Shown here piece after piece: positions 10,453 through 16,636 of a stretch of DNA of 64,000 nt. Location of the stretch: NCBI RefSeq assembly GCF_021699055.1, contig NZ_SSXC01000010.1, forward strand, positions 1 to 64,000, in the 5' to 3' direction. A model generated the notes under the pieces. The model was not told the origin of the DNA. It was given only the letters and a program-made list of their open reading frames with translations, and searched no databases. This stretch comes from Blastococcus sp. MG754426 (GTDB lineage: Bacteria; Actinomycetota; Actinomycetes; Mycobacteriales; Geodermatophilaceae). A program made the translations under genes and the position numbers. Within the stretch, counting starts at the first letter, position 1, and every line of letters begins with the position of its first letter.

Positions 10453-10797
10453 TCAGCCGGTGGAGCGGGGCTGGGCGGGGTTGGTGGGGTCGCCCTGCGA
10501 CGGCGGGTTCATCGCCGGGCCGGTGGTCGCCTCGGAGACCTTCGACCCGCCCGCGGCGTGCGACGGGTCGTCGGCCGCCGGCGCGGCGGGGTCGCCGCCC
10601 GAGGGCTGGGCGCCCTCGCGGAGCGACTGGAGCCGGTTCTCCATGATCGTGACCACCTGCACGCGGTCGGCGTGGGCGCGCTCGTACTCCAGCAGGGTCT
10701 CCAGACCCTGGGCGTCGAGCGTCCGGATCCGCGAAGCCAGCCCCTCCACGGGCAGGTGGTCGTAGTCGGGCAGGGGCAGCTGGTCGTGCTCGGTCAT
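10453..10797 (-). CDS. Small conserved actinobacterial protein (DUF8129-like)
   Basis: 114 residues from ATG 10797, with an upstream purine-rich site (AGAGAGGACGAGGG) directly before the start. The N-terminal half has the pattern LPLPDYDHLPVEGLASRIRT, then LLEYERAHADRVQVVTIMENRL. I associate this with a short helical domain in many actinobacterial proteins (DUF8129-like, moderate certainty). The C-terminal half is low-complexity Pro/Ala/Gly/Ser. No membrane helix or catalytic motif is seen; the function is unknown. It has its own promoter (GTGT-N15-GGGTAG, read on the minus strand), mirrored by the promoter of the release-factor-like gene, which suggests shared stress-type control. Confidence 0.7.
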   Translation of the reverse strand: MTEHDQLPLPDYDHLPVEGLASRIRTLDAQGLETLLEYERAHADRVQVVTIMENRLQSLREGAQPSGGDPAAPAADDPSHAAGGSKVSEATTGPAMNPPSQGDPTNPAQPRSTG

Positions 10798-10834
10798 CCC
10801 TCGTCCTCTCTGCGGTTCCGTGTCGCCCGACCGC

Positions 10835-10887
10835 CTACCCCGTCCTCCGCGATCGACACGGGGTGTGAGCGCCCGGTCGGTGGGTAG
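10835..10887. promoter_or_regulatory. Mirror-image GTGT-N15-GGGTAG divergent promoters
   Basis: Minus strand: GTGT at 10856-10859, 15 bases, then GGGTAG at 10835-10840, about 38 bases before the 10797 start. Plus strand: GTGT at 10863-10866, 15 bases, then GGGTAG at 10882-10887, about 79 bases before the 10966 start. CCGCCTACCC (10831-10840) and GGGTAGGCGG (10882-10891) form a perfect inverted repeat. The layout resembles actinobacterial SigB/SigF-type promoters (GTTT-N14-16-GGGTA). Confidence 0.55.
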
Positions 10888-10965
10888 GCGGCGACGGCGG
10901 GAGTGCGGCCCACGCCGCCCCGCCCACCGAACACCCCCGATCGACCGAGGAGTTGTCCCCCCGAC

Positions 10966-12099
10966 ATGGACGTGTCCTTCCTGGAGCCGGTGTTCGCCGC
11001 CGCTGGGCCCTACGCCACGGTCTGCGCCGACGTCACGCACACCACCGAGTCCGCCGACACCGAGCTCGAGCTCCGGGTGCGCGCGCTGAGCGAGAAGCTG
11101 ACCGAGCAGGGGGCGCCGGAGACGGTCGTGGAGGCCGTGCGCAGCCGGCTGCTCGAGGGCAACGAGGGCGGTGAGGCCGGCACGCTGCGGGGCCGCGCCG
11201 TCGTCGCCGCCGCCGACGGCACCGTCGTGCTGGACGAGGTGCTGGCCGACGCCCCCGCCCGCGAGACCGCCGAGTGGTCGGCCCACCCGGACCTGCTCCC
11301 GGTGCTGCGCCAGCTGGCCGGCCGGGTACCGCACGCCGTGGTCGTCGCCGACCGCGTCGGGGCCGACATCACCGTCGCCGGGCTCGCGGGTCAGCCGGAC
11401 GAGGAGCGGCAGGTGGAGGGCGACACCTTCCACATGCGCAAGGTCAAGGTCGGCGGCTGGGCGCACAACACCTACATGCACACCGCCGAGAACCAGTGGG
11501 AGGAGAACGCCGGCCAGGTCGCCGACGAGATCGACTCCTTCAACCGCCGACTCCCGCTGCGGTTCGTCCTGCTCGCCGGCGACGTCCGTGCCCGCCAGAT
11601 CCTGGGCGACAAGGCGCACGCCTCGTGGTCGGACCTCGTCGTCTCCATGGAGGAGGGCGGGCGCGCCGCGGGGGCCGACCGCGAGCCCATCGACCGGCGC
11701 ACGAAGGAACTGGTCGCCGAGCACGAGGCGCGCGACATCGCCACCGCCGTCGACCAGGTGCAGGCGGCCGGCGCGCACGGGCTGGCCGTCACCGGCACCC
11801 CGGCCGTCGTCGAGGCGCTGCGCAAGGGGCAGGTGGAGACCCTCCTGATCACCGACGAGCAGGACGCCGACGCGACCCTGCTGGTGGGCGGCAGCCCGCT
11901 GGAGCTCGGCGTCAAGCAGCAGGACATGGACGCGCTCGGGGTGCACGGCGAGGTCGTCCCCGCCGGTTCGGCGCTGCTGGAGGCGGCGGTCGCCAGCGCG
12001 GCCGGCGTCCTCGTCGTCCCCGCGGCGGCCCTGCCCGGCGACGGGCCGGTCGCCGCGATCCTCCGTTACACCGACGCCTCCACCGACGCCGGCAGCTGA
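10966..12099 (+). CDS. BaeRF family 2 (Vms1/Rv2629-like) release-factor relative
   Basis: 377 residues from ATG 10966; GAGGAG lies about 13 bases upstream. Segments EWSAHPDLLPVLRQLAGRVP, HAVVVADRVGADITV and VGGWAHNTYMHTAENQWEEN, then FVLLAGDVRARQILGD and VDQVQAAGAHGLAVTGTPAV, match the bacterial archaeo-eukaryotic release-factor family that includes mycobacterial Rv2629. The family is related to eRF1/Vms1 and may act on stalled ribosomes or peptidyl-tRNA. No GGQ loop is evident; its activity is inferred only from fold. It is followed 29 bases later by a DUF2795 gene, likely in one transcript from the GGGTAG promoter. Confidence 0.8.
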   Translation: MDVSFLEPVFAAAGPYATVCADVTHTTESADTELELRVRALSEKLTEQGAPETVVEAVRSRLLEGNEGGEAGTLRGRAVVAAADGTVVLDEVLADAPARETAEWSAHPDLLPVLRQLAGRVPHAVVVADRVGADITVAGLAGQPDEERQVEGDTFHMRKVKVGGWAHNTYMHTAENQWEENAGQVADEIDSFNRRLPLRFVLLAGDVRARQILGDKAHASWSDLVVSMEEGGRAAGADREPIDRRTKELVAEHEARDIATAVDQVQAAGAHGLAVTGTPAVVEALRKGQVETLLITDEQDADATLLVGGSPLELGVKQQDMDALGVHGEVVPAGSALLEAAVASAAGVLVVPAAALPGDGPVAAILRYTDASTDAGS

Positions 12100-12128: not shown

Positions 12129-12386
12129 GTGACCGATCCGCACCAGGCAGCCACCGCCCCCGGCACCGACCAGGGCAGCATCGAGCGCCGCGCCGCGCTC
12201 GCCGAGGCCCTCGGCAAGGAGGTGTGGCCGGCCGACCGCGAGCAGCTGATCGCCAAGGCGCAGGAGGGCGGTGGCACCGACCGGGTCCTGTCGGACCTGC
12301 AGCGGCTGCCCGCCGGCCGGCAGTTCGAGAACGTCCAGGAGGTCGCCGAGGCGCTCGGGCTCGGCACCGAGCAGCAGCGGTTCTGA
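12129..12386 (+). CDS. DUF2795-like small protein
   Basis: 85 residues from GTG 12129 with GAGGAG upstream (12117-12122). After a flexible N-terminus, the protein has a helical repeat (LAEALGKEVWPADREQLIAK) and the DUF2795 pattern VLSDLQRLPAGRQFENVQEV, then AEALGL. DUF2795 proteins are small, often stress-associated, and of unknown function. It is probably cotranscribed with the release-factor-like gene before it and with the acidic small ORF after it, whose start is two bases downstream. Confidence 0.75.
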   Translation: MTDPHQAATAPGTDQGSIERRAALAEALGKEVWPADREQLIAKAQEGGGTDRVLSDLQRLPAGRQFENVQEVAEALGLGTEQQRF

Positions 12387-12387
12387 C

Positions 12388-12618
12388 GTGACGACGCAGA
12401 AGAAGCCGAGCCCGGAGGCGCTGGACAACGTCACCGAGGACAACGTGGAGACGCGGTCGCAGCTGCTGCCGGAGGAGGAGGGCCTCCGCGGCAGCGGCAT
12501 GGAGGAGGTCGCCGCGGAGGTCATCCTCGCCGAGTCGGAGGAGCGGACGGTCCACCCCGACCCGGACGACGCCCAGGGCGCGCACCGGCAGTCCGCCGAG
12601 ACCGCGGACCTGCCCTGA
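12388..12618 (+). CDS. Small acidic hypothetical protein
   Basis: 76 residues from GTG 12388, beginning one base after the DUF2795 stop and ending one base before the thioesterase start, so it is packed into the operon. The composition is strongly acidic, with Glu/Asp-rich stretches (TEDNVETRSQLLPEEEGLRG) and no hydrophobic core, so it is probably disordered. I recognise no family. Tight packing and actinobacterial codon use support it being a real gene. Confidence 0.55.
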   Translation: MTTQKKPSPEALDNVTEDNVETRSQLLPEEEGLRGSGMEEVAAEVILAESEERTVHPDPDDAQGAHRQSAETADLP

Positions 12619-12619
12619 C

Positions 12620-13012
12620 GTGCGCCACGAGCACCCGGTCCGGCTGCGCTGGTCGGACCCCGACATGCTGGGCCACGTCAACCACGCCCGCGCGCTGGCC
12701 CTCCTGGAGGACGCGCGGCTGGCGATCGGGGACGACCACGCCGGCGGCGGGCTGATCCTGGCCCGCCTGGAGGTCGACTACCTGCGCCAGCTCTACTACC
12801 GGGTCGGCGAGGAGCTCTGCGTGCAGAGCTGGGTGACCCGGCTGGGGACGAAGTCCTTCACCGTCCGGCAGGAGCTGGTGCAGGACGGCGAGGTCGCCAT
12901 CCGCGCCGACTGCGTGCTGGTCGTGTTCGACTTCGCCGCGAACGCCAGCCGGCCGATGACCGACGCCGAGCGGGCGCACTGGACGCGGTACCTGGAGGCG
13001 GAGGCCGGCTAG
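12620..13012 (+). CDS. Hotdog-fold acyl-CoA thioesterase (4HBT)
   Basis: 130 residues from GTG 12620. The 4HBT signature is clear: VRLRWSDPDMLGHVNHARAL, with the catalytic-type Asp in WSDPD, then LEVDYLRQLYYRVGEELCV and LGTKSFTVRQELVQDGEVAI. The length is typical of the YbgC/FadM-like family, which hydrolyses acyl-CoA. The natural substrate is unknown. It is the last gene of a run of four genes. Its final four bases (CTAG) are shared with the stop of the convergent DUF4240 gene. Confidence 0.85.
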   Translation: MRHEHPVRLRWSDPDMLGHVNHARALALLEDARLAIGDDHAGGGLILARLEVDYLRQLYYRVGEELCVQSWVTRLGTKSFTVRQELVQDGEVAIRADCVLVVFDFAANASRPMTDAERAHWTRYLEAEAG

Positions 13013-16152: not shown

Positions 16153-16178
16153 GTGATCATCTCCGTCCCCCTGGGTAG
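16153..16178 (+). promoter_or_regulatory. GTGA-N16-GGGTAG promoter of the ChaB-like gene
   Basis: GTGA at 16153-16156, 16 bases, then GGGTAG at 16173-16178. The start codon is 30 bases downstream with a good ribosome-binding site between. It matches the GGGTAG promoters at 10835-10887 and suggests the same alternative sigma factor. Confidence 0.5.
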
Positions 16179-16207
16179 GGCCGGGGCCGACCCGAGAGGA
16201 GATCACG

Positions 16208-16636
16208 ATGGCGAAGACGACGAAGAAGGGCGACGCCAAGCAGTCGGAGCTGCCGAGCACCCTGCAGCGGTCGCCGAAGAAGGCGCAGCGGACCTACACG
16301 AAGGCCTACGACTCGGCGGTCGACGAGTACGACGACGAGGAGCGCGCGGCGCGGACGGCGTGGGCCGCGGTGAAGCACTCGTTCGAGAAGGTCGGCGACC
16401 ACTGGGAGAAGAAGGAGGGCGGCAAGAAGGGCCCCTCCGACGCGCAGGCCGCGGGCGGCCGGGGGACGGGCAAGCAGACCAAGGGCGGCGTGGACGCCAA
16501 CGCCTCCAAGTCGCACCTGATGGACCTGGCCAAGAAGCTCGACGTCTCCGGCCGGTCGAAGATGAAGAAGAAGGAACTCGTCGACGCCATCCAGAAGGCG
16601 AACGACAAGAAGACGGCGAACTCCCGCAAGAAGTAG
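16208..16636 (+). CDS. ChaB-Rho_N domain protein
   Basis: 142 residues from ATG 16208, with AGAGGAGAT upstream. Residues 14-70 match ChaB: ELPSTLQRSPKKAQRTYTKA, then a Tyr/Asp/Glu-rich stretch and AWAAVKHSFEKVGDHWEKK. A Lys/Gly linker follows, and residues 100-135 match the Rho N-terminal (SAP-like) motif: HLMDLAKKLDVSGRSKMKKK, then ELVDAIQKAN. The protein is small and very basic, so nucleic-acid binding is likely. Proteins of this design are common in actinobacteria and often follow stress promoters. Its exact role is unknown. A GGGTAG promoter lies just upstream and a hairpin downstream. Confidence 0.85.
   Translation: MAKTTKKGDAKQSELPSTLQRSPKKAQRTYTKAYDSAVDEYDDEERAARTAWAAVKHSFEKVGDHWEKKEGGKKGPSDAQAAGGRGTGKQTKGGVDANASKSHLMDLAKKLDVSGRSKMKKKELVDAIQKANDKKTANSRKK

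Follow-up and report, generated by a model that had tools for sequence, protein, structure and literature searches.

Conserved back-to-back promoters, probably of SigF type, at a probable Balon-type ribosome hibernation locus of Geodermatophilaceae

We describe two complete promoters of SigF type (SigB/SigF family), arranged back to back as mirror images, which very probably drive a Balon-type ribosome hibernation operon in one direction and a small partner gene in the other under stress. They lie in a 64,000-nucleotide stretch of DNA from Blastococcus sp. MG754426 (contig NZ_SSXC01000010.1, positions 1–64,000), here called the window. Since related soil bacteria have kept both promoters, the two divergent genes are probably turned on together under stress. 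Geodermatophilaceae are known to survive drying and radiation, and our reading would place a Balon-type hibernation operon behind a promoter of the general-stress type across a whole bacterial family. It also names two uncharacterised genes that are probably co-regulated, and the natural variants at this locus (leaderless or leadered, packed or spread, Balon present or lost) offer a direct way to test whether SigF controls hibernation and whether polymerases compete.

Results

A mirror-image promoter pair and the genes on either side

The leftward promoter (reverse strand) consists of a -35 box GTGT at 10856–10859 and a -10 box GGGTAG at 10835–10840, and the rightward promoter (forward strand) of GTGT at 10863–10866 and GGGTAG at 10882–10887, all four boxes being read from the sequence and from aligned relatives. 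The spacer is N15 on both strands, base 10861 is the symmetry centre for both box pairs, and 3 bp lie between the two -35 boxes; the whole pair covers 53 bp, with 41 bp between the -10 boxes, a distance that encloses both -35 boxes. Within the pair, CCGCCTACCC and GGGTAGGCGG form a perfect inverted repeat. The coordinates thus confirm the original prediction of GTGT-N15-GGGTAG on both strands within 53 bases, inverted repeat included. With a -10 box GGGTA and a GTTT/GNNT-like -35 box at a spacing within N14–19, the pair has the make-up of SigF/SigB-type promoters. No mirror pair arose in 300 windows simulated with a third-order Markov model; the pair is not accidental.

To the right, the pair faces a forward-strand gene at 10966–12099 encoding a 377-aa homologue of the Balon/Rv2629-type ribosome hibernation factor (baeRF_family2), recognised by Pfam, NCBIfam and PDB matches. 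The protein scored 149.6 bits against Pfam PF18844 (baeRF family 2; gathering cut-off 26.9), and its residues 9–370 match chain z of PDB 8v9k, Balon (Rv2629), with an E value of 3.7e-19. We found neither a GGQ nor an NIKS motif in its sequence; the absence of both is stated for Balon relatives in the available text of PMC10901736. Because its score against NF052289, the Rv2629 equivalog model, is 238.8 bits and the cut-off is 320, we call it a Balon-type homologue only and not a certified equivalog. The original prediction had described all three genes served (this one, its leftward neighbour and the ChaB gene discussed below) as small and poorly known, a description that a 377-aa Balon/Rv2629 homologue does not fit. 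Further along the forward strand, and probably in the same operon, lie a DUF2795 gene (12129–12386; Pfam match, start taken from a crude gene caller), a conserved 76-aa gene without a Pfam match (12388–12618) and a 4HBT-type thioesterase gene (12620–13012; Pfam match). By eye, a DUF2795-like frame stands directly before the Balon-type gene at two loci of another actinobacterial family (L180, L189), and after it in the window.

To the left, on the reverse strand, a gene at 10453–10797 encodes a 114-aa protein without a Pfam match. Its residues 9–58 match the C-terminal end of the Rv1109c-type model NF033649 weakly, at 40 bits against a cut-off of 110.

Conservation of the pair in the family

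Our first set comprised 38 loci, among them one Frankiales MAG and one labelled Bacillus, the others being titled Blastococcus, Geodermatophilus, Modestobacter or Geodermatophilaceae. By design of the search these are close relatives, with 64–97% identity in the Balon-type protein; the closest to the window (97%) is a Blastococcus. Both promoters and the leftward gene were present at all 38 loci. Across the 39 aligned rows (38 loci plus the window) the boxes are identical, the leftward GTGT included (39/39), and the spacers have a mean pairwise identity of 0.71 for the right promoter and 0.54 for the left. Spacers are 15–17 nt long on the left and 15 or 17 nt on the right, and the gap between the -35 boxes is 3 bp in 30 rows, 4 bp in four, 2 bp in three, 5 bp in one and 36 bp in one; where a row has a doubled GTGT (GTGTGT), two registers are possible for both spacer and gap. 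GTGT-N15-17-GGGTAG was found in 38/38 Balon upstream regions vs 9/9869 overlapping background windows of 150 nt (first 38 loci).

For the second set 57 family genomes were drawn. A Balon-type protein match at 1e-20 was present in 39: 37 full-length copies (the window's included), one split between frames (G050) and one fragment at a contig edge (G010). Upstream of the other full-length copies GTGT-N15/17-GGGTAG was present in 36/36, accompanied by the divergent promoter in 34. Fifteen of these 36 loci were already in the first set; the 21 new ones yielded the right promoter in 21 and both in 19, with gaps of 1–6 bp at 17 of the 19 new pairs and of 17 bp and 36 bp at the remaining two. When the two sets are pooled, 59 distinct loci besides the window have the right promoter in 59/59 cases and both in 57/59. 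The exceptions are G003, in which the Balon-type gene has its own promoter at another place in the genome, and G007, in which the left GGGTAG is kept and the GTKT box is missing. At genome scale, the mirror pattern occurs in 36/57 family genomes, at one place each, and the reversed-pattern control in 0/57. The relocated gene of G003 (L303, L304) has its own GTGT-N17-GGGTAG, and the same genome carries a separate mirror pair with reading frames on both sides that start 9–10 nt past the -10 box. The frame-split gene of G050 (L311) is still preceded by GTGT-N17-GGGTAG.

A Balon-type match is missing in 18 of the 57 genomes. We inspected three of the 18, namely G019 and G021, which keep the mirror pattern, and G049, which belongs to the window's genus. 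Each (L301, L302 and L312, respectively) still has a mirror pair, the leftward gene and genes from the downstream part of the operon, but Balon is gone from the interval between promoter and operon; G021 has lost DUF2795 as well. These loci are apparent natural deletions of Balon, and the persistence of the pair and the downstream genes where Balon is missing hints at a right promoter that serves the entire operon.

Start codons and predicted transcription starts

At 14 of the 38 first-set loci the leftward start codon lies 9–11 nt past GGGTAG without a Shine-Dalgarno sequence, and at 24 the distance is 34 nt or more and such a sequence is present; none falls between, with L074 and L090, whose start codons the script left unresolved, both counted in the long-leader group. 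The ChaB start codon lies 9–10 nt past the -10 box at 8/30 family loci and at least 26 nt past it at the others, and for the 16 well-placed strict sites of the window's own genome (see below) the start codon lies 12–13 nt (five sites) or 37–98 nt (eleven sites) past the A of GGGTA. Such distances, short without or long with a Shine-Dalgarno sequence, are as expected of -10 boxes. On a simple reading, transcripts of the short group would begin at the start codon or a few bases before it, so that the start site would lie at most about 12 nt past the hexamer. The candidate start sites are near 10823–10827 for the leftward promoter, 10895–10899 for the rightward one and 16186–16190 for ChaB. The original prediction had placed starts 6–9 bases past GGGTAG, slightly closer than the 8–10 nt of nine mapped GGGTAN promoters of the Streptomyces coelicolor SigB homologues (3–11 nt over all those shown in Table 2 of PMC8346170). 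Leaderless mRNAs are described as common in mycobacteria, at 24% in Mycobacterium smegmatis, in the available part of PMC6448022.

In 38/39 rows the Balon leader past GGGTAG (10888–10965 in the window; L061–L098) is 60–112 nt long; on the divergent side there is often hardly any leader. At L072 and at L286 and L297 of the second set, the Balon start codon lies 9–10 nt past GGGTAG. It is possible that the Balon leader has a role.

ChaB and the strict motif

The original prediction further held that GTGA-N16-GGGTAG precedes a ChaB/Rho-N gene. This site lies at 16153–16178 and the gene at 16208–16636, both on the forward strand, and Pfam bears out both domains (ChaB, 76.9 bits; Rho_N, 30.9 bits). 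We read the ChaB upstream region at 30 family loci, the window's included, out of 55 genomes with a match: GGGTA lies within 70 nt in 30/30, and GTNN-N14-17-GGGTA is present in 25/30, in 20 of them as GTGA. The -35 box GTGA falls outside GNNT but equals that of the Streptomyces promoter SCO7446p. In many close relatives (several of L107–L123; 16153–16160 in the window) the -35 region extends to GTGATCAT, so that the conserved block is longer than GTGA by itself.

A genome-wide search for GTNN-N14-16-GGGTAG, suggested along with the original prediction, showed no enrichment (234 sites vs 237 for the reversed pattern), and we rejected this loose motif as a regulon finder. The stricter form GTKT-N14-16-GGGTA gave 32 sites in the same genome vs 20 reversed. 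Half of the strict sites (16/32) lie between genes and point towards a start codon no more than 250 nt away, vs 1/20 and 2/20 of the reversed controls (p = 0.0006 and 0.003), the control loci having been classified in both reading directions; a further 12/32 lie inside a called gene, and all these placement counts are approximate, as they come from a crude gene caller (a codon-usage score trained on eight genes). Among the first 30 of the 234 loose sites, with one place listed twice, 12/30 were well placed, and the strict set is no better (p = 0.30). Enrichment of the motif upstream of genes, as originally predicted, was thus seen for the strict form by placement (16/32 vs 1–2/20) and failed for the loose form by number.

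The mirror pair accounts for two of the 16 well-placed strict sites, and the rest precede 14 other genes, of which Pfam names 11 and three have no match. The named products are nickel superoxide dismutase (Sod_Ni), CsbD, PspC, DJ-1/PfpI, aldehyde dehydrogenase (Aldedh), two polyketide-cyclase-like proteins, an epimerase, a formate/nitrite transporter, PAP2 and a nucleotidyltransferase.

A candidate sigma factor

The SigB/SigF/SigG model TIGR02980 has eight hits in the genome, one of them above the cut-off of 234.35 (297.4–298.3 bits; gene L099:1249-2184). The other four of the five best hits type best as RpoD-like SigB, RpoD, WhiG and FliA/WhiG-like, the last below cut-off. Against the SigF subfamily model NF005514 the L099 gene scored 333.6 bits, under the cut-off of 372, for which reason we label its product SigF-type and not a certified NF005514 member. 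The gene comes after an HATPase_c_2 (RsbW-like) gene, which has no NCBIfam match at 1e-10 and is itself preceded by GTTT-N17-GGGTAA. Within 1500 nt upstream, a site of this type was present at 16 of the 30 sigF-like family loci read (out of 31 matches); the 14 loci without it comprise 7 of the 23 at 86–100% identity (those seven at 86–90%) and 7/7 at 48–57%. The -35 boxes differ, being GTTT at the sigF operon and GTGT in the mirror pair.

Together with the report in the literature that ChaB depends on SigF in M. smegmatis, the conservation, the box spacing, the start-codon spacing, the one SigBFG sigma factor over cut-off and the stress-type genes behind the strict motif support the originally predicted SigB/SigF-like stress regulon shared by these genes.

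Loci beyond the family

At the class level, 68 other genomes match at 1e-20, and we took the 29 best-scoring Balon loci among them. GT[GT][TA]-N14-16-GGGTA lies within 150 nt upstream at 7/29 (22 are without it) vs 42/4416 background windows (0.95%), with a p value of 9e-9 that is optimistic since the background windows overlap. The leftward gene stands beside Balon at 0/29 of these best 29 of 68 loci. Mirror pairs were also found in 17 of 295 other class genomes (reversed-pattern control, 0/296), and we rejected the idea that the mirror pair is unique to this locus. Ten of the 17 also have a Balon-type gene, and the mirror place coincides with Balon in none. At three loci of one genus (L257, L261, L269), GTTT mirror pairs 3 bp apart lie, by eye, between epimerase-like and glycosyltransferase-like frames, with start codons 8–12 nt past both -10 boxes, so that both sides are apparently leaderless.

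Discussion

In the mechanism that we propose, stress would free SigF from an RsbW-type anti-sigma factor, and SigF would send RNA polymerase to either half of the mirror pair. Rightward, the Balon-type gene would be transcribed and then, probably as one operon, DUF2795, the small gene and the thioesterase; leftward, the gene of the small conserved protein; and a third SigF-type promoter would drive ChaB. As the -35 boxes are only 3 bp apart, two polymerases probably cannot occupy both halves together, and each binding event would choose one direction. Balon would then sit in the A site of idle ribosomes. From sequence we infer the SigF dependence of the mirror pair and of the ChaB promoter, as well as the operon, the polymerase competition, the stress signal and the function of Balon here. 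Tight packing is common and not essential, since pairs 36 bp and 17 bp apart exist, as does the spread pair in L312. It seems to us rather unlikely that the packing itself is selected, as a splitter fixing the ratio of hibernation operon to partner, and that this geometry arose independently at other SigF-type pairs in Actinobacteria.

Several other explanations were weighed. GGGTAG and GT are common in a genome of 75% GC, the window holds 23 GGGTAG vs a simulated mean of 22, and the loose motif is unenriched genome-wide, all of which would fit chance or composition; against 38/38 loci vs 9/9869 background windows, and a reversed control of 0 in 57 and 0 in 296 genomes, the probability of this explanation is practically nil. 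Chance is already refuted for the mirror pair, and single loose matches elsewhere may be chance. The inverted repeat might instead be a palindromic operator bound by a dimeric transcription factor, with the promoters, if any, elsewhere: the ACACCGGGTGT-like core at its centre comes close to a palindrome, and GA follows the right-side GTGT in 39/39 aligned rows. However, the gap between the half-sites varies (2–5 bp, with 36 bp at one first-set locus and 17 and 36 bp in the second set) while the box pairs stay at N15–17, and the GGGTA-to-start distances behave as for -10 boxes. Because a rigid dyad would not tolerate a variable gap, we reject the operator as very improbable.

We also give little credence to real promoters whose main reader is a different sigma factor or more than one. 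The difference between GTGT/GTGA here and GTTT at sigF would agree with that reading, as would the score of the candidate SigF under the NF005514 cut-off and the cross-recognition of promoters among S. coelicolor SigB homologues described in PMC8346170, but the model is passed by just one of the five best SigBFG hits, and the other four type as different sigma classes. SigF-type promoters driving the hibernation operon and its partner are the reading that we prefer.

Promoters of this type are familiar from other systems. In the available text of the M. smegmatis SigF regulon paper (PMC4694148), the promoters have, like those here, a -10 box GGGTA and a -35 box GTTT or variants at a spacer of 14–19. 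The regulon includes ChaB (MSMEG_1802, GTTT-N16-GGGCA), down about 4.7 log2 in the delta-sigF strain and two locus numbers before sigF (MSMEG_1804), with MSMEG_1803 being the SigF antagonist; MSMEG_1794 has GTGT-N17-GGGTA, like the boxes of the mirror pair. Unlike in M. smegmatis, the -35 boxes here are GTGT/GTGA, sigF is on another contig than ChaB, and the genes served include one of Balon type. Neither Rv2629 nor hibernation occurs as a word in the available text of that paper. MSMEG_1130 of M. smegmatis is not among the SigF promoter rows examined; in the one paper of the searched collection that mentions it along with SigF, it is a row of a powder-state expression table. The promoters of the S. 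coelicolor SigB homologues (available part of PMC8346170) share the GGGTAG -10 and GNNT -35 boxes, and the mapped promoter SCO7446p is GTGA-N16-GGGTAG, as at ChaB here, although S. coelicolor has nine SigB homologues and this genome one SigBFG sigma factor over cut-off.

As to Balon itself, mycobacterial Balon/Rv2629 copies are described as hypoxia-induced in the excerpted text of PMC10901736, in contrast to the general-stress type of promoter here. The same source gives yocB of Bacillus subtilis as a Balon homologue, and yocB and csbD are among 146 genes listed as SigB-controlled in spore germination and outgrowth (PMC7824861); that regulon belongs to a different phylum, and no mirror arrangement was found in the available text of the paper. 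An open-access search of one collection returned no literature joining Balon, a sigma factor and ribosome hibernation and, by title and abstract, no earlier report of the mirror arrangement.

The bidirectional promoters of Warman and Grainger (PMC12825309) resemble the present pair, as far as that article's available text goes, in their pseudo-symmetric DNA and in that one polymerase can exclude the other. In the five Escherichia coli examples tested there, basal levels of transcription did not suffice for competition, and when one direction was strongly activated the other could be repressed. Their starts, however, are arranged around one shared -10 box, whereas two complete promoters abut here at their -35 ends, and with 41 bp between its -10 boxes the window pair lies outside the definition of a bidirectional promoter with a shared symmetric -10. 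Set beside these systems, the promoter type is already known, and what is new is its conserved mirror arrangement at a Balon-type operon.
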